Positions 16,514 to 55,554 of a DNA stretch of 55,554 nucleotides are shown here, piece by piece (the first letter of the stretch is position 1; each line of letters begins with the position of its first letter). The translations under genes were made by a program, and so were the position numbers. Below the pieces are notes generated by a model. It was not told the origin of the DNA. It was given only the letters and a program-made list of their open reading frames with translations, and searched no databases. The stretch is from a virus, in IMG/VR virus record IMGVR_UViG_3300033148_006010, positions 1 through 55,554 of that record. The stretch is one strand, 5' to 3'.

Positions 16514-16642
16514 ATGTGGGATGTGAGAGATAAGCGTAAATTTATGAAAAAATGGGAGGAGTTTAAACGGTATAGTTTGAAGATTTGTAATATAAATAAT
16601 GAGCAAGAGGTTAATAAAAGTGAAAATAAAAATAATAAGTAA
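16514..16642 (+). CDS. Small charged protein (42 aa)
   Basis: ATG 16514 lies ten bases after GGAG and encodes MWDVRDKRKFMKKWEEFKRY and a Lys/Asn-rich end to TAA at 16640. It overlaps the next gene by 23 bases. The first half is a good amphipathic helix. Not recognised; a small terminase is not supported at this size. Confidence 0.35.
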   Translation: MWDVRDKRKFMKKWEEFKRYSLKICNINNEQEVNKSENKNNK

Positions 16643-17087
16643 GATATGGGTATTGGTATTAGTGGGGTTGCTTTCTGCTTGTGCTACACAAGAGCCTAAA
16701 GTAGACGGATGGAGTTTTATAGTACAAGATAAAAGAGAAGTAGTAAATATACGTTTAGGTATATTGTTTTTTGATTTTGATGAAAGCAATATAAAAACTA
16801 GTACGAAAGAAAATTTAGATAAAATTGTTACTTTGCTTTTGAGTAATGATTTTTTTGATATTGAAATACATGGGCATTGTGATAATAGGGGAACTGATGA
16901 GTATAATATGATTCTTGGAGGTAAGCGTGCTAGTGTCGTAGCTAATTATTTATTGGCTTGTGGAATAAATGCGAAAGATATAAGAGTTATTTCACATGGT
17001 GCGAAACAGTCGTTTAGTAATTTCCATTGGCAAAATCGCAGAGTTGAGATTATAGCAAAAACGAGAAATGCAATTAAAGGAACTTGA
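16620..17087 (+). CDS. OmpA/Pal-like lipoprotein (155 aa, GTG start)
   Basis: The GTG at 16620 is chosen because AGAGG precedes it and it gives a normal lipoprotein signal (MKIKIISKIWVLVLVGLLSAC, lipobox Cys21); an ATG at 16599 would add seven residues without an SD. The C-terminal domain is OmpA-like: FFDFDESNIKTSTKENL, HGHCDNRGTDEYN and GKRASVVANYLLACGI with NRRVEI. This fold binds the diaminopimelate peptide of peptidoglycan, and Pal anchors outer membrane to wall. An outer-membrane lipoprotein between packaging genes is unusual; envelope modification, superinfection exclusion or lysis timing are possible roles. Confidence 0.8.
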   Translation: MKIKIISKIWVLVLVGLLSACATQEPKVDGWSFIVQDKREVVNIRLGILFFDFDESNIKTSTKENLDKIVTLLLSNDFFDIEIHGHCDNRGTDEYNMILGGKRASVVANYLLACGINAKDIRVISHGAKQSFSNFHWQNRRVEIIAKTRNAIKGT

Positions 17088-19683
17088 ACAGAACGTAAGT
17101 AACGTAGAAAATATAATTAACAGTTTAGAATCTGTAGAAGATTTAGAACAGTTGCTTTGGAATATAGAGCATCCTGATTTAGATTTTCCAGAGGTAGGAC
17201 TGGTTGAGTTTGTTTTGTCTGATAAGTATTTAGATTGTAAAGATGAAATATACGATAGTTGTTTAAATGATTTAAAGTCAATGGAAAAAGGCGGGCAGAA
17301 AAGAATTATATTAGAAGGAGCTCCTGGTTGTGGTAAATCTTTTGTTTCTTCATGTCTGATTTCTTATACATTAGCACGAACATTATCTTTAAGGAGTCCT
17401 CAAAAAACATTTGGTATGGCTAGAGGAACTTTTATATGTGCTATGAATATGGGAGTAAATGAAATAAATGCTAGGAATGTTATATTTAATGATGTAAAAG
17501 CAAGGATAGATAATTCTCCGTGGTTTCAAAAGTTTTTTCCTCCTGACCCTGAAATAAAATCTGCACTTAGATTTAGTAAGAATGTAGGGCTTATTCCTGG
17601 TAACAGTAAGATGACATTTCCTTTAGGATTTAATGTATTTTGTGCAGTTATGGATGATTGTGCTTGGTATCAAGATACAGATGAAAAAGATATAGCGAAA
17701 GAAATGTATGAACAATTAGATAAGAGAATATCAAGGCGTTATCCTACTTGTCCATGGGCTTATTTGATTATGGTTAGCAATCCTTCTTATAATAACAAGT
17801 TTATTGAAAAAATGCAAGAAAGGGCTTTTGCAGAACCTAATAAATATTGGGCTATGCGTAGAAAGATATGGGATGCGAAACCTTTTATGTATTGTGGAAA
17901 GACATTCGAATATAATGGCAGACAAATTCCTATAGAGCATAAAGATGATTACGAAAAAGACCCTGTATCTGCTGAAAGGGATTTAGAGGCTAAGCCATCC
18001 GCTTCTTTAATGCCATTTTTTAAGTCTATGATTCCAGTATATCAATCTCTAAATAAAGCCGTTAAAAATCCAGTAGAGGGAAAAGATTTTAATAGAATAT
18101 CGGAATCTTTTAAGCCAATAGATGTTAATTATTTTATACATTTAGATTTAGCCGTTAATAAATGTAGTGCGGCTCTTGCTATGAGTAGATGGCTTTCTAC
18201 AAATAAGATACGAGTTGAATTAATAATGAGGTTTGACCCTAAACAGCTTGGTGGGGAAATTAATTTTGAAGATATTAGAGAATATATTTATTTACTTAAG
18301 GATATGAAGTTTAATATTAGAAGATTGACGGCAGATGGTTTTAATTGTTTAGGCGGTAATACTGAAATTCCTTTGTTAAATGGCAATGTAAAGAAAATTA
18401 AAGATATTAAAGCAGGGGATTATGTTTATAGTTTGAATAATAATCAAGAAATAGTAGCCGGTAGGGTAAAATCAGATGCTAAAATGACTGGAATGAAAAG
18501 GATAATCAGAATTACTTTAGATAATGGACAAGTTATTGATTGTTCTGAAGAACATCCATTTTTAATGCGAGATAATATTTATAAAAGGGCTAATGATTTA
18601 AACATTGATGATAGTTTAATGCCTCTATATAAAAAGACAGGTATGTTAGATTTAAGTTCATATGAAATGACTTTTAATCCTAGATATAATAGATATGAGT
18701 ATACACATAGATTAATAGCAAGACAAATGAATATTTTAAGGAAAGGTTTAATAGTTTATCATAAAAACGGTAATAAAAAAGATAATTGTCCTACTAATTT
18801 AATGTCTGTGACCCATACAGAACATAGTAAATTACATAGAGATTTAGGTAGATATGCTTGTAGAATTATGCGTGCAAAATTAAGAAATATGCCTAAATCT
18901 ATTAAAATAAAGAATGAAAAATTTTTAATGAATTCTAAGATTTATCATATGTCAATTTTTAAAAATAAACATATAGAGGCAGGTAAAAAAAGTTGGATTA
19001 CTAAAACAAAGATGGGGCAAGAGTGTCCATTGGTACAATGGAGAAAAGATAATTCTGTTAAATATTTTCAATATATGAAAGAAGTATGGAGTAGAAAGGG
19101 ATATAAAGAAAGATTATCCAATAAAATATCAAAATCTATAAAAAGTTTATGGAATAACGAGGAATATAGAAAAAAAATGTCAGAAGTTCATAAAGGTAAA
19201 ATTCCATGGAATAAAGGAAAAGTTTTAAATCATAAAATTATTAACATAGAGCGATTGCCTATTTATATTGAAATGTATGATTTTGAGGTTGAAAAATATC
19301 ATAATTTTGCATTACAAGCTGGTATTTTTGTTCATAATTCTGTAGATTTTCTCCAGATAATGAAACGTAGAGGCATTACTGATTGTGATACGCTTTCATT
19401 AGATAGAACAGACGTACCTTATACTACATTTGGTTCAAAAGTATTAGAGGGATTAGTAGAATTTCCGTGGGTAAATATAGATAATGCCAGGGTTTTTGAA
19501 TCGCCACAAAGTCCAGAGGAATGGTTTATAAAAGAAGCTAAGACATTAGAAAGGGCTGGAAACAAAATTATAAAACCACCTAAAGGGAGTAAAGATGTTA
19601 TAGATGCTGTATGTGGTAGCGTATATAATGCTGTAGAAGTTGGAAATAAAAAAGCTAGAAAATTTTCTGTTAAAATTGTTTAA
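17068..19683 (+). CDS. terL: Large terminase subunit with intein (871 aa; 540 aa after splicing)
   Basis: The packaging ATPase shows Walker A GAPGCGKS near residue 90 and Walker B VMDDCAWYQD near residue 195. The C-terminal nuclease domain contains FIHLDLAVNKCSAAL and the split motif LTADGFN/SVDFLQ. The gene is interrupted in that nuclease motif by an in-frame 331-residue intein (427-757). After splicing the enzyme has a normal length. It cuts concatemers and pumps DNA into the prohead through the portal encoded next. The gene overlaps the Pal-like gene by 20 bases. Confidence 0.9.
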   Translation: MQLKELEQNVSNVENIINSLESVEDLEQLLWNIEHPDLDFPEVGLVEFVLSDKYLDCKDEIYDSCLNDLKSMEKGGQKRIILEGAPGCGKSFVSSCLISYTLARTLSLRSPQKTFGMARGTFICAMNMGVNEINARNVIFNDVKARIDNSPWFQKFFPPDPEIKSALRFSKNVGLIPGNSKMTFPLGFNVFCAVMDDCAWYQDTDEKDIAKEMYEQLDKRISRRYPTCPWAYLIMVSNPSYNNKFIEKMQERAFAEPNKYWAMRRKIWDAKPFMYCGKTFEYNGRQIPIEHKDDYEKDPVSAERDLEAKPSASLMPFFKSMIPVYQSLNKAVKNPVEGKDFNRISESFKPIDVNYFIHLDLAVNKCSAALAMSRWLSTNKIRVELIMRFDPKQLGGEINFEDIREYIYLLKDMKFNIRRLTADGFNCLGGNTEIPLLNGNVKKIKDIKAGDYVYSLNNNQEIVAGRVKSDAKMTGMKRIIRITLDNGQVIDCSEEHPFLMRDNIYKRANDLNIDDSLMPLYKKTGMLDLSSYEMTFNPRYNRYEYTHRLIARQMNILRKGLIVYHKNGNKKDNCPTNLMSVTHTEHSKLHRDLGRYACRIMRAKLRNMPKSIKIKNEKFLMNSKIYHMSIFKNKHIEAGKKSWITKTKMGQECPLVQWRKDNSVKYFQYMKEVWSRKGYKERLSNKISKSIKSLWNNEEYRKKMSEVHKGKIPWNKGKVLNHKIINIERLPIYIEMYDFEVEKYHNFALQAGIFVHNSVDFLQIMKRRGITDCDTLSLDRTDVPYTTFGSKVLEGLVEFPWVNIDNARVFESPQSPEEWFIKEAKTLERAGNKIIKPPKGSKDVIDAVCGSVYNAVEVGNKKARKFSVKIV
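18346..19338 (+). mobile_element. HNH-endonuclease intein in the large terminase (331 aa)
   Basis: The intein starts at Cys427 (CLGGNTEIPLLNG, block A), has block B CSEEHPF, and ends FALQAGIFVHN (blocks F and G), followed by Ser758 as first C-extein residue. These are the residues expected for standard protein splicing. Between them is an HNH homing endonuclease (HRLIAR...VYHKNGNKKDNCPTNL...EHSKLH) and a NUMOD3-like stretch (KKMSEVHKGKIPWNKGK). It is inserted at the nuclease active-site motif DGF-(N/S)-VD, a conserved site that favours homing. All key residues are present, so it looks active. Confidence 0.88.
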
Positions 19684-33454: not shown

Positions 33455-36067
33455 ATGGCTACTATTGGAGAAGCGGTTTTAGAATTTAGAACTCAACTTA
33501 CTAATTTTAAGAAGGGTATGGATGAGGCTAAAACTAGCTTAGGTAAATTCGGTGCGGCTGTTAGAGATAATGCACAAGGATTTAGAAATGCTGGTATTGC
33601 TATCGGTGCTTTTTCTGCGGCAGTAATTGGATTAGGAACAAAGGGAGTAATGTCTGCGGCTAAGTTTGAATCACAACTACAAAATGTTGCTACTATGTTG
33701 GACAATACAACAATGAAATTTATGCCTGAATATAAAAAGGGCTTAGAAAATTTAGCACAGAAATATGGAGAATCCACAGCAACATTATCTAAAGGCTTGT
33801 ATGATATTTTATCTGCAAGTGTTGATGCTGAAAAAGCATTAGACGTATTGGACGCTTCTGCTCAATTAGCAAGAGGGGGTTTAACTGATACAGGGGTTGC
33901 GGCGGATGCTTTGACTACAATTATAAATGCTTATCAAATGTCAGCAGATAAAGCTACAGATATTAGCGATTTACTTTTTGCTGTTGTTAAACGTGGTAAA
34001 ACTACTATGGGGGAGTTAGCTCCTGCTGTTGGTATGGTTGCAACGACAGCTTCTACTGCTGGATTAAGTTTAGAAGAAATGGGAGCTATGCTTGCTACTA
34101 TGACAAGAAGTGGTTTAAATACTAGAACCGCTGTTGTATCTTTAAATATGGCAATGACGGGAATATTAAAACCTACTAAACAGGCGAAGGAAGCGGCGAA
34201 AGAATTAGGGCTTGAATTGAATACTACTACATTGCGGGAAAAAGGATTAATTGGAATGGTAGATATTTTAAATACTGCTACCGACGAACAACTTGCAAGG
34301 ATTTTCCCTAATATCCGTGCATTTCGTGGTTTGGCAGTTGCTTTAAATGATACTACTGGATATGAGAAAGATTTACAGATAATGACAAATAGAACAGGAT
34401 ATACTCAAGAAGCGTTCGGAAAACAAACAGATACTGTAACATTTTCATTTGAAGTATTTACTCAAAAAGTAGAGGCTTTGTGGAGAAAATTAGGAGAAAC
34501 CTTATTACCTGCTGTAGAAACAGGAATAGATTATTTTTCTGAATTTATTGATTATATTAATGATACTAATACTGCATTTACAAAAATAATTGTTGTTGGG
34601 GGGGCATTTATAGGTATATTAGGAGTAATGTTATCACCAATATTGTTAATGATTGGTTATTTGCCACAGATTGCCTTAGGATTTAAAGCCATTGGTTCTG
34701 CATTAACGTTACTTTCTGCACATCCTATAATTGCATTAGCAATTGCTGTAGTGGGATTAGGTACTATTTTTACTAAATATTTTAACAGAAGAATAGACCA
34801 ACAACTTACAGAACAAGAAAATGAATTACGATTAAGTAAAACTATTAAAGGGCGTATAAAGCTTATTAAAAAAGAGATGGAAGAAATTAAGACACTTGCT
34901 ACTAGTGCAGAAGTTAATGAAAAATATAGAATAGAATTGTTAGAAAATTACAACAAAAAACAGAAACAATTGAAATTTTATGAACAGAAGCTTGCAGAAG
35001 AAACTGAAAAGAAAAAAACAGAAGCGGCAAGAATAGAAGCTGAAAAACAGAAACAAATAGACAAAGAACAATCTAAGATTAAAGAAGCTCAAGCTGGAGC
35101 AGAAGCTGAAAGATTAGCGGCAATTAAACAAGCAGAGTTAGATAGAAAAGCAGAAGCACAAAGAATGTATGATGAGGCAATGTATGAACATCAAGTTGAG
35201 CAAGGACAAATAACACTTGAACAGCAACGAATTGACCTTGAACAGCAACTAGCTAATGTACGAGGAAATCTTATAAAAGAATTAGAAGTAAAAAGGAAAA
35301 TATGGCAATTAGAAACTAAAATAGCAGGAGAAAGGTCAAAAACAATTGTTGGTGGATTTAAGAAAGCCATAGAAGAAATGAAAAAAAAGCAAATTGATTG
35401 GGCAAATAATTTTACTCAATTGTTTAATGATATTCAAGATTCTTTTAAATCCGGTATTGTCAATATGCTTAAAGGTGCTAATAATTTTAAAGAAGGCATT
35501 AAGACAATTACAGATGGTATTAAAAATGCATTTTTTGACATGATAGCTAAGGTAATAGCTGAATGGATAATGCAACATATTATTATGAAAGCAATTACAA
35601 AGGCATGGAAAGTCTATGAGATTAAAAGTGCGGCAGGAGTAGCCGCAGCTAGAGCTGCCGCCGCCGCCGCATGGTCTTTGTTTGCATCTGTTGCAATAGG
35701 AGCCGCAGTAGGAGCCGCAGTAATAGCAATGGCTAATCAATTCAGGGATGGTGTTAGAAACTTTGAAGGTGGTATGGCGATTGTAGGTGAACAAGGAGCC
35801 GAACTTGTAAGTTTACCTAAAGGGAGTAATGTTTATAGTCATAGCGATTCTTTAGGAATTGCAAGAAATATAAGAACAAATGCAGGTTCAGGAAATATTG
35901 TAAAGTTGGGTGATATAAATATTGATATTGCAAGTGTAAGTAAAGATAATATTAGTGAAATATGTGACCAATTAACGGAAGCTGTAAAAGAGGGAAATAT
36001 GCCAGCGATAAATTTGGTTAAGGCGATTAGTAAAGAGGGCGGTTTTAGAAGTGATGAGGTATATTAA
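33455..36067 (+). CDS. Tape measure protein (870 aa)
   Basis: The N-terminal ~330 residues follow the TP901-type tape measure pattern (FGAAVRDNAQGFRNAGIAIG, FESQLQNVATMLDNT, SKGLYDILSASVDAEKALDVLDASAQLARGGLTDTGVAADALTTIINAYQM). Hydrophobic segments occur near residues 375-440 and ~725-765. The middle is a long coiled coil (EAARIEAEKQKQIDKEQSKIKEAQ). At roughly 0.15 nm per residue it predicts a tail near 130 nm, so a siphovirus-like virion. It fixes tail length and is ejected ahead of DNA. One of the longest genes, as usual. Confidence 0.88.
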   Translation: MATIGEAVLEFRTQLTNFKKGMDEAKTSLGKFGAAVRDNAQGFRNAGIAIGAFSAAVIGLGTKGVMSAAKFESQLQNVATMLDNTTMKFMPEYKKGLENLAQKYGESTATLSKGLYDILSASVDAEKALDVLDASAQLARGGLTDTGVAADALTTIINAYQMSADKATDISDLLFAVVKRGKTTMGELAPAVGMVATTASTAGLSLEEMGAMLATMTRSGLNTRTAVVSLNMAMTGILKPTKQAKEAAKELGLELNTTTLREKGLIGMVDILNTATDEQLARIFPNIRAFRGLAVALNDTTGYEKDLQIMTNRTGYTQEAFGKQTDTVTFSFEVFTQKVEALWRKLGETLLPAVETGIDYFSEFIDYINDTNTAFTKIIVVGGAFIGILGVMLSPILLMIGYLPQIALGFKAIGSALTLLSAHPIIALAIAVVGLGTIFTKYFNRRIDQQLTEQENELRLSKTIKGRIKLIKKEMEEIKTLATSAEVNEKYRIELLENYNKKQKQLKFYEQKLAEETEKKKTEAARIEAEKQKQIDKEQSKIKEAQAGAEAERLAAIKQAELDRKAEAQRMYDEAMYEHQVEQGQITLEQQRIDLEQQLANVRGNLIKELEVKRKIWQLETKIAGERSKTIVGGFKKAIEEMKKKQIDWANNFTQLFNDIQDSFKSGIVNMLKGANNFKEGIKTITDGIKNAFFDMIAKVIAEWIMQHIIMKAITKAWKVYEIKSAAGVAAARAAAAAAWSLFASVAIGAAVGAAVIAMANQFRDGVRNFEGGMAIVGEQGAELVSLPKGSNVYSHSDSLGIARNIRTNAGSGNIVKLGDINIDIASVSKDNISEICDQLTEAVKEGNMPAINLVKAISKEGGFRSDEVY

Positions 36068-42223: not shown

Positions 42224-42756
42224 ATATACGATATATAATATATAGTATTTCGAATTCGATTTTACTTTTATTTTTACTTACTTTATGGGGGTGTGGGGGG
42301 AATAAAAGCTTACTTAATCCTGAACTTACTTTATTTAAAGCACAAGCTCAAAAAGATTTAGTAGCTGGGGTTAAAAATGAGGTTAAGGAAGTGAAGGCAC
42401 AAATGGATAGTTTGGTTAAGGCACAAGTTAATTTACAATCGCAGATAGATTCGGAAGTCGAAGCTAGATTTAATACTCAAGCTGGATTTAATAATAGGCA
42501 AGATGAAACGAATATACAATCTGGTAGAGATACGACTACAGTTACTAATGATACTAATTTAATGAAGTATATAATTTATGCCCTTAGTTCTTTATGTATG
42601 ACACTTATAATAGGGCTTATAACGTGCTTAAAGATGTTTATTAAGTTAGGCAAACGGAAAGACTTTTATAAAGAACAGACTTTGTTACATGCACAATCTG
42701 AAGAAGCGATTAAACAATTAAGAGAATTGCATGATTCATATATCAGTAAAAAATAA
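42220..42756 (+). CDS. u-spanin-like lipoprotein with C-terminal membrane anchor (178 aa)
   Basis: The N-terminus ends in a lipobox (LLTLWGC, Cys25), so the protein would be anchored in the outer membrane. A ~85-residue periplasmic coiled-coil region (EVKEVKAQMDSLVKAQVNLQSQIDSEVEARF) follows. A membrane segment at ~116-140 is then followed by a 38-residue charged tail. Lipoprotein at one end and inner-membrane anchor at the other is the topology of unimolecular spanins that fuse the two membranes at lysis. The long tail is longer than usual. Coupled to the endolysin by ATGA. Confidence 0.65.
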   Translation: MNIRYIIYSISNSILLLFLLTLWGCGGNKSLLNPELTLFKAQAQKDLVAGVKNEVKEVKAQMDSLVKAQVNLQSQIDSEVEARFNTQAGFNNRQDETNIQSGRDTTTVTNDTNLMKYIIYALSSLCMTLIIGLITCLKMFIKLGKRKDFYKEQTLLHAQSEEAIKQLRELHDSYISKK

Positions 42757-42759
42757 CGC

Positions 42760-42788
42760 TTGACAAGTATATTGAAATTTACTATAGT
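42760..42788 (+). promoter_or_regulatory. Consensus sigma70 promoter of the accessory cassette
   Basis: TTGACA (42760-42765) and TATAGT (42783-42788) are separated by the optimal 17 bases. It lies four bases after the lysis operon stop and only 12 before the next ATG, so the mRNA would start about six bases before that ATG. The promoter would let the 42801-54365 genes be expressed independently of the late operon. Confidence 0.7.
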
Positions 42789-52332: not shown

Positions 52333-53462
52333 AAAAAATAGCATTAATTAATCCTGCAAGTTCTTTTTTAGTTCATGATGGAGATAGACCACCTTTAAAT
52401 CTTGCTTATCTTGCTACAAGTGTTAGGCAATCACACGATATAAAAATTTTTGATTTTTCTATAAATAATCATTTAAAATTACTCAGAGAAATTAGAAAAT
52501 ATAATCCTGATATTATTGGATATACTGCTACTACTCCTACTTTTCCTGAAACTGTAAGATTATTAAAAGAAATATCGGTTATTGTACCGACAGCTATAAA
52601 TGTTATCGGTGGTGTCCATGCTACAATTATGCCTAAATATTGTTTAAAATGGTTTGATTATGTAATTATAGGTGAAGCTGATTTTAGTTTTAAGAAATTT
52701 TGTAGCGAAGAAAAACCGAAAGATAGAATTATTAAATCTGATACGATATATAAAATTGATGGACTATTACCAGCACGAGATTTATTGCCTATGAATAAGT
52801 ATAACATGCAATTAGATAACGAAAAATGTACAATTATAATTACTTCAAGGGGATGCCCTTATGGATGTATTTATTGTAGTTCGATTGCTGGTAAAAGAGT
52901 AAGATTAAATAGTGCCGAAAATGTTGTTAATGAAATTGGTGATATAATGAGTAAATATAATTATAGAAGTTTTTATTTTCTTGATGATATATTTACTATA
53001 GATAGATTTCGGGTATTTGAAATTTGTAGATTAATAAGAGAAAGAAAATTGAATATTGAATTTAGAATTACTACTAGAATTGATTTAGTTGATAAGGTTA
53101 TGTTAAATGTTTTAAAAGCATCTGGTTGTAAAATGATTTGTTATGGTTTAGGATCTGGTTCCGATAGAATGTTAAAATTTTATAATAAGAAATTTCAAGT
53201 ACAAGATATTAAAAGAGTTGTTAATATGACTAAACAAGTTGGCATTGAAATAAAAGGGTTTTGGATGCATTCTAAATATGAAAATATAGAGGATGGAAAC
53301 GATACTGATAGTCTTATAAAGGAATTAAATTTAAAAGAAAATGGCATATACGATTTAGTTGTATATCCAGGTTCTGAATTGTGGCGAAGGGAAATGAAAA
53401 ATATAGAGCCAGATATTCAATATTTTGAAAAATTATATCATGGAGGAAAGAATAATGCGTAA
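52329..53462 (+). CDS. B12-binding-like radical SAM protein (377 aa)
   Basis: Residues 1-125 form a cobalamin-binding-like Rossmann domain (ALINPASSF...DRPPLNLAYLAT, NPDIIGYTATTPTF, NVIGGVHATIMP, YVIIGEADFSF), but no DxHxxG motif is visible, so B12 may not bind. The radical SAM core has C176-x3-C180-x2-C183 (RGCPYGCIYC), FLDDIF and CYGLGSGSD. Related enzymes methylate or rearrange lipids, sugars and peptides. At 377 residues it is slightly short at the C-terminus. It lies in the glycan cassette. Confidence 0.8.
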   Translation: MKKIALINPASSFLVHDGDRPPLNLAYLATSVRQSHDIKIFDFSINNHLKLLREIRKYNPDIIGYTATTPTFPETVRLLKEISVIVPTAINVIGGVHATIMPKYCLKWFDYVIIGEADFSFKKFCSEEKPKDRIIKSDTIYKIDGLLPARDLLPMNKYNMQLDNEKCTIIITSRGCPYGCIYCSSIAGKRVRLNSAENVVNEIGDIMSKYNYRSFYFLDDIFTIDRFRVFEICRLIRERKLNIEFRITTRIDLVDKVMLNVLKASGCKMICYGLGSGSDRMLKFYNKKFQVQDIKRVVNMTKQVGIEIKGFWMHSKYENIEDGNDTDSLIKELNLKENGIYDLVVYPGSELWRREMKNIEPDIQYFEKLYHGGKNNA

Positions 53463-53586
53463 GGAAACTATTTTGGATTATATTTGTCCAAAATGCGGTT
53501 ATAATAGGTGGAAAACTGTAATTAAAGGTAAAAAATATCAATGTAGAAACAAGAATTGTAATTATATTAAGGAGATGAAACGATGA
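53455..53586 (+). CDS. Zinc-ribbon peptide (43 aa)
   Basis: GGAGGAAAGAATA precedes ATG 53455. The product reads YICPKCGYNRWKTV and then YQCRNKNCNYIKEM: two Cys pairs forming a zinc ribbon. It overlaps the radical SAM gene by 8 bases and the next gene by four. Small ribbons like this often bind nucleic acid, but no partner is evident in a glycan cassette. Confidence 0.6.
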   Translation: MRKETILDYICPKCGYNRWKTVIKGKKYQCRNKNCNYIKEMKR

Positions 53587-54365
53587 GCAGGGTTTTACTT
53601 ATAGCAGGTGGATATAGGTTAGGCGACAGTTTCCATCTTATTCCTATATTACGCAAATTAGCTCAAAAACATGATGAAATAACATGGATTACTGGAGAAT
53701 ATGCTAGAGAAGTATCTACCTTTTTAGCTTCTGTTTCGAATTTAAAAATTAAACATTTAAGAATTATGAGTGAGTATAGAAAACCTGGAGACATAACAGA
53801 CAGGGAACGATTTGTTAATCATATATTTTATAATGATGGTAGGAATAGAGATGAAATAAATCCTAAACAATTTGATGAAATAGTAACAGATGTTCGCTGT
53901 AGTTTTGAAATTGCTTATAATTATAAAGGTTATATTGGTAATTATCCAGAATTAACTACTATTGATTTACTTATTGAAAAAAAATCTTTACCTTATATAT
54001 GTGTTCAACCTGATAGTATATCAAAACAGAAATCTATAAAAAGTTTAGTAAATCTTGATTATCCTTTACGCACTTATACTTTGGGTTGTAAAAATGAATT
54101 GCTAGTTTTTAAATCGCAAGATGCTAGACAAATTCCGTATGAAGAATCTATGAAATTGCTTTATCAGTCAAGATTTAATGTATGTATTCATTCTAGTTTT
54201 GCATGTGCAAGTTTTTACTTTAATAAGCCTACAATTATTATCCATTTTTTTAATGGGCAGTTCAAATTTGGCAAGTTTCATAATAACTGTTTAGACCTTG
54301 TAACTCCTACAGGAAAACAGATAGAACAAGCTATGAGAGAATACGCTGAAAAATACAAGTCTTAA
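53583..54365 (+). CDS. GT9-like glycosyltransferase (260 aa)
   Basis: The N-terminus VLLIAGGYRLGDSFHLIPILRKLAQKHDEITWITG has the 'G..GD.....P.l..L' pattern of GT9 (heptosyltransferase-like) enzymes, as in the 27682 fusion. The C-terminal half has FNVCIHSSFACASFYFNKPTIIIHF, resembling the donor-side 'H......A......vvlfg' region. It is shorter than typical GT9 enzymes (~330). It is the last gene of the cassette. Confidence 0.6.
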   Translation: MSRVLLIAGGYRLGDSFHLIPILRKLAQKHDEITWITGEYAREVSTFLASVSNLKIKHLRIMSEYRKPGDITDRERFVNHIFYNDGRNRDEINPKQFDEIVTDVRCSFEIAYNYKGYIGNYPELTTIDLLIEKKSLPYICVQPDSISKQKSIKSLVNLDYPLRTYTLGCKNELLVFKSQDARQIPYEESMKLLYQSRFNVCIHSSFACASFYFNKPTIIIHFFNGQFKFGKFHNNCLDLVTPTGKQIEQAMREYAEKYKS

Positions 54366-54432
54366 TATCCTCGACGATAAAAGTCGTATTGTAAGGTAGT
54401 ATAAATCGGTATAAACTTTTTTAAAATAACTA

Positions 54433-54461
54433 TTGACAATAAATGGTATATGTACTATACT
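54433..54461 (+). promoter_or_regulatory. Consensus sigma70 promoter before the small early-type genes
   Basis: TTGACA (54433-54438) and TATACT (54456-54461) have the optimal 17-base spacer. The transcript would start near 54468, giving a ~170-base leader before the ATG at 54640. The bases 54366-54432 before it hold no gene; a small CGAC/GTCG hairpin lies near 54372-54386 without a U-tract. Confidence 0.75.
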
Positions 54462-54479
54462 GTTAGTGTAAGAAGATGT

Positions 54480-54640
54480 AAAACTAAGGGGTTTGAGAAA
54501 GTGTTAAAACTAAGGGAAAAACAATCAAAAAATCTTGTAAAAAATCAAAGGGACAGGTTTACCCTTAGTTCGTTTGGTACTCAGCCAAACACCCTGTCCC
54601 TAAATTTGCATAGTAAAAAACTAAGGGGGGTAAAATTTAT
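54480..54640 (+). promoter_or_regulatory. Leader with a possible pseudoknot switch over the Shine-Dalgarno
   Basis: AAAACTAAGGG occurs three times: 54480-54490, 54506-54516 and 54617-54627; the third includes the SD of the gene at 54640. The exact complement CCCTTAGTT is at 54562-54570. It is presented inside a closed unit: stem AGGGACAGG (54549-54557) with CCTGTCCCT (54593-54601), and a hairpin GTTTGG/CCAAAC (54572-54590) with loop TACTCAG. The exposed complement can pair either with the two upstream copies or with the SD copy, a design like a competitive switch. Alternatively the repeats are protein operators. Confidence 0.5.
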
Positions 54641-54839
54641 GTCTGAATTAAATTTAGTTTGGAAAAATAGTATTGAAAAAGAACAAGCGTGTAGATTGAT
54701 AGAAGAACAGAAAAAGACGAATGACAGATTGATAAAAACGACTCGACAGCTTGAAATAAAATTGATAGTAGCAGAAGCATTTAACGATAGGTTGATTAAG
54801 GAAAAAGAAGAATTAAATAGAAAATTAAAAGAAATATGA
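54640..54839 (+). CDS. Small coiled-coil protein behind the structured leader (66 aa)
   Basis: AAGGGGGG lies 9 bases before ATG 54640 (MSELNLVWKNSIEKEQACRLIEEQKK). The frame is open further upstream, but that part lies in the leader and has no coding character. The product is one long helix with heptads ending EKEELNRKLKEI; probably a dimeric coiled coil. First gene of the promoter at 54433. Function unknown; being the first gene behind a switch-like leader suggests a regulated early protein. Confidence 0.6.
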
Positions 54840-55006
54840 TAGTAACAGGTATATATATAAAAGGCAATAGAGAAATGATTGTGGCTTATAATATTTTAAA
54901 AAAGGGAAATAAGTTTATTCCTGTATCTGGTACATATTATAGAAAATATAATATTAACGATATAGAATATAATAAATTATTAGGAAGGAGTAAAAAATGT
55001 ATATAA
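54836..55006 (+). CDS. Small hypothetical protein (56 aa)
   Basis: Starts on an ATGA overlap with the previous gene. The peptide is MIVTGIYIKGNREMIVAYNILKKGNKFIPVSGTYYRKYNIND and a charged end: likely a small beta-sheet protein. No motif recognised. It overlaps the next gene by 10 bases. Confidence 0.45.
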   Translation: MIVTGIYIKGNREMIVAYNILKKGNKFIPVSGTYYRKYNINDIEYNKLLGRSKKCI

Positions 55007-55155
55007 GACAATGTTGTCATTGTAAGAAATATTTAGGAATTAAAGCTATATGGAGTTGTAGAAGTTTTAAGGCATTTTTGAAAGGATTGTTTATTATGCA
55101 GGGGATAATTCACGGTTATTGTCGTTTTTGCGAACGGAATGTGTTTGTAAGGTAG
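54997..55155 (+). CDS. Small cysteine-rich protein (52 aa)
   Basis: GGAAGGAG precedes ATG 54997. The product has CCHCKK near the N-terminus and GYCRFCERN near the C-terminus, separated by a basic hydrophobic helix: a split zinc-binding layout. Its function is unknown. It overlaps the preceding gene by 10 bases. Confidence 0.5.
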   Translation: MYIRQCCHCKKYLGIKAIWSCRSFKAFLKGLFIMQGIIHGYCRFCERNVFVR

Positions 55156-55238
55156 TAAACTATTAAAAAATAAAAATACCCATTTTAAATCGCAAATATA
55201 TGCAAAAAATAAATTAATATATTAGAAAGGAGATAAAA

Positions 55239-55358
55239 ATGACTATATTGCAGATAAATCAAGTAAGGGCAGAATTGGCAGATAAGTTAGAAAATTATGA
55301 AATTACAGAGGATGAATACTGGTTTGAAATAGAAGAAATGATAAGAAATTTAGAATAA
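55239..55358 (+). CDS. Small acidic helical protein (39 aa)
   Basis: GAAAGGAG precedes ATG 55239. It encodes MTILQINQVRAELADKLENYEITEDEYW and a further acidic helix ending IRNLE. The acidic, helical style matches other small genes at this end. The 83 bases before it (55156-55238) are AT-rich without an ORF. Confidence 0.5.
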   Translation: MTILQINQVRAELADKLENYEITEDEYWFEIEEMIRNLE

Positions 55359-55379
55359 TTTTTATAAAGGAGAAATGAT

Positions 55380-55442
55380 ATGGATTAGATGAAAGATATA
55401 TTTTCAGAACACGAAAAACAAATAGGGAATACAAACTCATAG
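55380..55442 (+). pseudogene. Short ORF with an early in-frame TAG
   Basis: AAAGGAG ideally serves ATG 55380, but this reads only Met-Asp before TAG (55386-55388). A second ATG at 55389 in the same frame continues MKDIFSEHEKQIGNTNS to TAG at 55440. Reinitiation could express the 17-residue peptide, or the gene is a remnant. It is the second small gene of the window with an early in-frame stop. Confidence 0.3.
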
Positions 55443-55451
55443 GAGGAAACG

Positions 55452-55554
55452 ATGAAAATAAATACAATCAGACACGGAGACTTACTACTACAAAGAATAG
55501 ACAAGCTACCAGAAGGACTTAAAGAAGCAAACACAAAAGTTATTATGACAGGGA
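55452..55554 (+). CDS. Truncated gene at the right edge, conserved phage protein type
   Basis: AGGAGGAAAC precedes ATG 55452, a strong start. The visible 34 residues (INTIRHGDLLLQRIDKLPEGLKEANTKVIMTG) match the N-terminus of a small protein I know from several phages only as hypothetical, with the 'RHGD..l..i..LP.G' pattern. The frame runs off the window, so length and end are unknown. Confidence 0.55.
   Translation, partial: MKINTIRHGDLLLQRIDKLPEGLKEANTKVIMTG

Follow-up and report, generated by a model that had tools for sequence, protein, structure and literature searches.

The leader in front of the gene at 54639 raises the question of whether its transcript sets its own translation, through competing pairings over the Shine-Dalgarno (SD) sequence, or whether its conspicuous repeats have another origin. 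The window, that is, the whole virus record of 55,554 bases (29.7% GC), carries every main gene on the + strand. The leader lies between a glycosyltransferase/radical-SAM block and a rightward operon cut off by the record end. In a circular genome, this operon would presumably continue into the replication genes at the window start; no end repeat was present when we looked for one in the window. The features to which we refer are as follows.

3.6-13 kb, + strand: primase, helicase, methylase and nuclease genes
17-42 kb, + strand: terminase, portal and tail genes
45-54 kb, ending at 54365, + strand: glycosyltransferase/radical-SAM block
54433-54461, + strand: sigma-70-type promoter, TTGACA-17-TATACT, 11 of 12 matches, the best in 53400-55554
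54480-54490, + strand: repeat copy 1, AAAACTAAGGG, with the SD-like UAAGGGG (-7.7 kcal/mol with the anti-SD)
54506-54516, + strand: repeat copy 2, AAAACTAAGGG, the favoured nested partner of the complement (pairing probability, 0.65)
54538-54552, + strand: fourth direct copy, degenerate, TAAAAAATCAAAGGG (81% similarity to copy 3 across 16 nt)
54549-54557, + strand: 5' arm of stem P1, AGGGACAGG
54562-54570, + strand: CCCTTAGTT, complement of all three repeats, on the 5' side of the P1/P2 internal loop
54572-54590, + strand: P2 apical hairpin, GTTTGGT-ACTCA-GCCAAAC
54593-54601, + strand: 3' arm of P1, CCTGTCCCT; with 54591-54594, an alternative partner of the copy 3 SD
54617-54627, + strand: repeat copy 3, AAAACTAAGGG, containing the SD; TAAGGGGG extends to 54629
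54639-54839, + strand: first gene of the operon, encoding a 66-aa lysine/glutamate-rich, coiled-coil-like protein without a database match
54836-55006, + strand: second gene of the operon, with its start and the stop of the first gene sharing ATGA

An earlier note on this DNA had described a consensus promoter, repeats at 54480, 54506 and 54617 and a perfect complement at 54562-54570. The promoter indeed agrees with the consensus at 11 of 12 positions, all three repeats are located as claimed, and the complement is CCCTTAGTT. Transcription would start near 54468. Two coordinates needed revision. The gene had been placed at 54640, and its start codon, ATG, occupies 54639-54641. Both stems are present: P1 (54549-54557 with 54593-54601, 9 bp) as described, and the second stem (54572-54578 with 54584-54590) with 7 bp, including one U-G, rather than 6. 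Spacers of 4 nt separate P1 from the complement, 17 nt P1 from copy 3 and 32 nt copy 2 from P1, and the degenerate fourth copy overlaps the P1 5' arm. The second gene is probably coupled translationally to the 54639 gene via the ATGA overlap.

The repeat core, TAAGGG(GG), is an extended SD, complementary to the 3' end of 16S rRNA. CCCTTAGTT is therefore an anti-SD strand, and copies 1 and 2 are SD look-alikes; the AAAAC flank common to the repeats exceeds what an SD requires. This phage uses SD sequences regularly, as 36% of 72 starts have a duplex of -6 kcal/mol or lower, compared to 7% of random sites. The duplex of copy 3 (-11.3 kcal/mol) ranks fourth among the 72 starts, which bears out the proposal that this copy contains the SD of the downstream gene (54639). 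The match between the SD region and its upstream complement (9 nt, 4 G/C) is the longest among the 72 starts, the sole other 9-nt match having 1 G/C. Moreover, the three CCC tracts of the leader all lie in the hairpin and are able to pair with the SD G-run, and only 6 C residues occur in the 81 nt upstream of P1.

A strong but ordinary ribosome-binding site (RBS) might account for part of this. Under this explanation, the SD-like repeats would be decoy or standby sites that arose by local duplication, the 5' hairpin would stabilise the mRNA, and nothing would switch. TAAGGG is, after all, the SD core, gene 22223 is preceded by a similar RBS (AACTTAAGGGGG), and the degenerate fourth copy suggests duplication. 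The leader ensemble is also not unusually stable (see below). A perfect complement of 9 nt, exposed in the loop of the hairpin, would be left unexplained, and we consider an ordinary RBS unlikely.

We compared the arrangement with chance expectation. On both strands of the 55.5-kb window, exact AACTAAGGG occurs five times, four of them within 54482-54627 (146 nt); the fifth, at 42581, is inside a gene. In dinucleotide shuffles of the leader, we counted any GC-containing 9-mer with at least two direct copies and a complement, four in all. The observed combination of repeats and complement was reached in 0 of 15,000 shuffles for 9-mers and in 17 of 30,000 for 7-mers. Elsewhere in the window, no 9-mer containing three or more G/C reaches three copies in one region, both strands counted. 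The cluster of repeats and complement exceeds chance. The hairpin (54545-54605, -22.0 kcal/mol) had a z score of -5.16 as + strand RNA and of -2.36 on the other strand; among 61-nt segments across the entire window it ranked second, behind one at 35616 within a coding region. Taken over its full length (54468-54660), the leader was not unusually stable (z = -0.58); it is set apart by its repeats and its hairpin rather than by stability in general. A functionless accident would suit a single genome that offers no conservation evidence; given the shuffles and the hairpin z score of -5.2, it is very improbable.

Could the repeats act as DNA? Three direct sites and one inverted site of 9 to 11 bp behind a promoter might be operators for a regulator of the phage or the host, or else the iterons of a replication origin. 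The exact 11-bp conservation includes AAAAC, which is dispensable for SD function, an inverted copy exists, and the locus lies beside a promoter at the junction of two gene blocks. Phage origins can sit in early leaders. However, the copies run from about +13 to the SD without overlapping the promoter, and their centre spacings (26, 54 and 57 bp) lack helical phasing. The motif is non-palindromic, the inverted copy matches at just 9 of 11 positions, and the sole other exact copy (42581) is within a gene. Copy 3, furthermore, coincides with the SD, and the hairpin favours + strand RNA. No clear DNA-binding regulator came up in those proteins that we scanned with Pfam. We judge DNA sites to be improbable, if still worth weighing.

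To describe the RNA, we modelled its folding. As the earlier note had proposed, the complement is predicted to be essentially unpaired between the stems of the isolated hairpin, and the three copies are able to compete for it. In the nested (pseudoknot-free) ensemble, the complement paired with copy 2 (0.65) or copy 1 (0.28), together about 93%, and with copy 3 at only about 1e-5, while P1 was nearly absent (0.013). The SD G-run was mostly paired in this ensemble; its partner in the minimum-energy structure was the P1 3' arm, whose ACCC and CCCU pair with GGGU and AGGG. This SD-masking role of the P1 3' arm had been overlooked. Pairing of copies 1 or 2 with the complement had been expected to release the SD; by itself it does not, since the nested fold hides the SD with the P1 3' arm. 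In the nested picture, freeing the SD cost 5.4 to 8.5 kcal/mol with the complement on copies 1 or 2 and 2.2 kcal/mol with P1 formed, so that part of the proposed switch logic is reversed.

Pseudoknots were estimated roughly, as the stack plus an assumed penalty of 7 to 12 kcal/mol. P1 together with one copy:complement pseudoknot was about equal to the nested ensemble, better at a penalty of 7 and worse at 12. The pseudoknots ranked copy 2, then copy 3, then copy 1, within about 2 kcal/mol, which is below model error. The loops should sterically permit both pseudoknots. With pseudoknots included, all states fell within 2 to 3 kcal/mol, and the outcome depended on the penalty assumed; the energies are too close to decide the resting state. 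In a growing-chain calculation, copies 1 and 2 captured the complement once it was made, before the SD exists. The predicted direction of switching differs between folding models.

We also considered that the leader is translated. Initiation at GTG 54501, with copy 1 as its SD, would yield an N-terminally extended protein or ribosome-controlled attenuation. The UAAGGGG SD lies 9 nt before this GTG, and the frame is open for 46 codons into the 54639 gene (P of about 0.02 by shuffling), as is the frame from ATG 54450. Its codon score (-0.19) falls in the out-of-frame range, with no real in-frame segment that low, and it lacks the stop codon of a leader peptide. With codon usage like that of a wrong frame, the leader was rejected as coding sequence, and a translated leader seems highly unlikely. 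Terminator attenuation was rejected as well, as no terminator-like site (hairpin plus U run) was found in 53400-55554.

Searches for relatives followed several routes. No Rfam 15 covariance model matched at its gathering score, in line with the earlier impression that this is not a recognised riboswitch class; at a lax E-value only RF01098 appeared, at 16.7 bits versus 70, which is not meaningful. No homologous leader was found in IMG/VR, GTDB genomes, GenBank phages or plasmids, and blastn of the leader against phages and plasmids gave no meaningful match. Two AACTAAGGG with a 12- to 42-nt gap occurred in 70 IMG/VR stretches; among the matches listed, these were coding or low-complexity repeats, and, again among those listed, the complement was near paired AACTAAGGG only at the window's own locus. 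The pattern CTAAGGG-CCCTTAG-CTAAGGG occurred in 8 IMG/VR stretches, none of them homologous, and its 8-mer version in GTDB genomes gave just one cyanobacterial repeat. For the neighbouring proteins (54639, 53583 and the primase), no homologues were found. The portal search yielded one contig with an identical portal, a 27-kb fragment whose position suggests that it spans about 15.7-42.9 kb of this genome, and one 68% relative; the helicase search yielded 19 relatives (46 to 61%). Ten records of portal or helicase relatives were searched whole, and the leader was absent from them. A portal profile had no match in GTDB genomes, and hence no host prophage was found there.

Together, these results tentatively favour, at just short of even confidence, a cis-acting RNA leader (about 54468-54638) that would govern how the 54639 gene, together with its coupled neighbour, is translated, with competing SD pairings deciding the outcome. 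The leader is real and non-random, with the anatomy of a competitive SD-masking RNA, and the mechanism is plausible. A perfect complement lies upstream of the SD and has alternative partners. In favour of an RNA leader are the repeat/complement cluster beyond chance, the strong hairpin, far more so on + strand RNA (z scores of -5.2 versus -2.4), the confinement of the CCC tracts to the hairpin together with a top-four SD and the longest SD-complement match, and the non-coding codon usage. In addition, a scan of about 280 kb of DNA from related and more distantly related phages did not turn up the signature of a repeated SD 8-mer and its complement, followed by SD and ATG. The RNA-leader reading is weakened by whole-leader stability no greater than that of shuffles, by the single genome without homologues, by the model-dependent switch direction and by the inherent self-similarity of SD-like repeats, TAAGGG being the SD core.

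According to our model, the SD and the two upstream SD-like copies could each pair with CCCUUAGUU, which a stable hairpin would present in its internal loop, and the hairpin 3' arm would be an alternative partner of the SD. The winning pairing would determine loading of the 30S subunit. Our analysis shows the sequence elements, their departure from randomness, the predicted hairpin and the strength of the SD, whereas we infer that the pairings form in cells, which way the switch would go and what might trigger it. Copies 1 and 2 would capture the complement first during transcription. An occupant of these copies, be it a 30S subunit, a protein of the phage or an RNA, would then let the complement pass to the true SD, and translation would be shut. 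It is doubtful that the leader is an RNA switch of the phage that is self-contained, with two upstream SD copies as baits for one hairpin-held anti-SD strand and the SD pseudoknot as the off state. This bait-type layout is absent from the known riboswitches and phage leaders compared here. If true, such a switch would give a phage a very compact means of timing its first genes, and its built-in bait design would be easy to test and reuse.

If the model is right, the leader resembles in outline the closest SD-masking systems described; it does not show the tested defining features of any one family. Viral pseudoknots that control translation initiation are rare, and the T4-type gene 32 pseudoknot was perhaps the sole viral autoregulatory example in a 2010 review (PMC3014915). 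That leader likewise belongs to a phage mRNA, has a pseudoknot-capable structure upstream of the RBS that controls initiation (there in autoregulated translation), and carries repeated short motifs (UUAA) that reach the RBS (PMC3014915). In gene 32, protein binding is cooperative and is nucleated by the pseudoknot, with the repeats as unstructured protein sites (PMC3014915), whereas here the repeats are predicted to pair with a hairpin strand and include the SD, and nothing recognised links the 54639 product to single-strand binding proteins. In T4 genes e, soc, 49 and I-TevI, the SD and/or start codon is similarly masked by intramolecular pairing, and for e and I-TevI the block depends on the promoter that makes the transcript (PMC3014915); in our leader, every competing segment is 3' of the single strong promoter in the vicinity. 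In translational attenuation of erm genes (PMC5118997), alternative leader pairings also decide SD exposure, and a ribosome stalls on a short leader peptide. Our leader has no separate peptide that would end upstream of the gene, as the one suitable open frame that we found lacks a stop and has non-coding codon usage. SAM-II-type translational riboswitches (PMC9373788) share a pseudoknot topology able to sequester the SD. Compared to these and H-type riboswitches generally, our leader lacks an Rfam match or evidence of a ligand pocket, and has two extra decoy copies upstream. SD-sequestering pseudoknot topology occurs in other H-type pseudoknot riboswitches as well.

Several further observations were made. 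The pattern search also returned an unrelated phage leader (IMGVR_UViG_3300036794_000027, minus strand, about 71-171) with two long, mutually exclusive hairpins that share CCCTTAG, CTAAGGGTAGTGGC:GCCACTACCCTTAG versus CCCTTAGTGATACCC:GGGTATCACTAAGGG, directly before the SD TTAGGAGG and an ATG; its competitive layout is similar, and, being found by pattern, it is a selected case. In the window, glycosyltransferases with B12-binding radical SAM and LicD-like genes form a large phage block (27682-29604 and 45045-54365). The terminase large subunit (17068-19683) has an HNH-endonuclease-like part at residues about 540 to 720, possibly an inserted element such as an intein. Directly 5' of it, an OmpA-family domain protein is encoded (16599-17087), which is unusual for a phage and may hint at a diderm host. 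A second promoter-like site, TTGACA-17-TATAGT, is located at 42760-42788, 12 nt 5' of gene 42801, and the minus-strand AACTAAGGG copy at 42581 lies about 180 nt upstream of it. Finally, 1105-1215 contains interlaced inverted repeats, GGTTGCAATAC/GTATTGCAACC and TACTGGACTA/TAGTCCAGTA, which form a strong hairpin on both strands.
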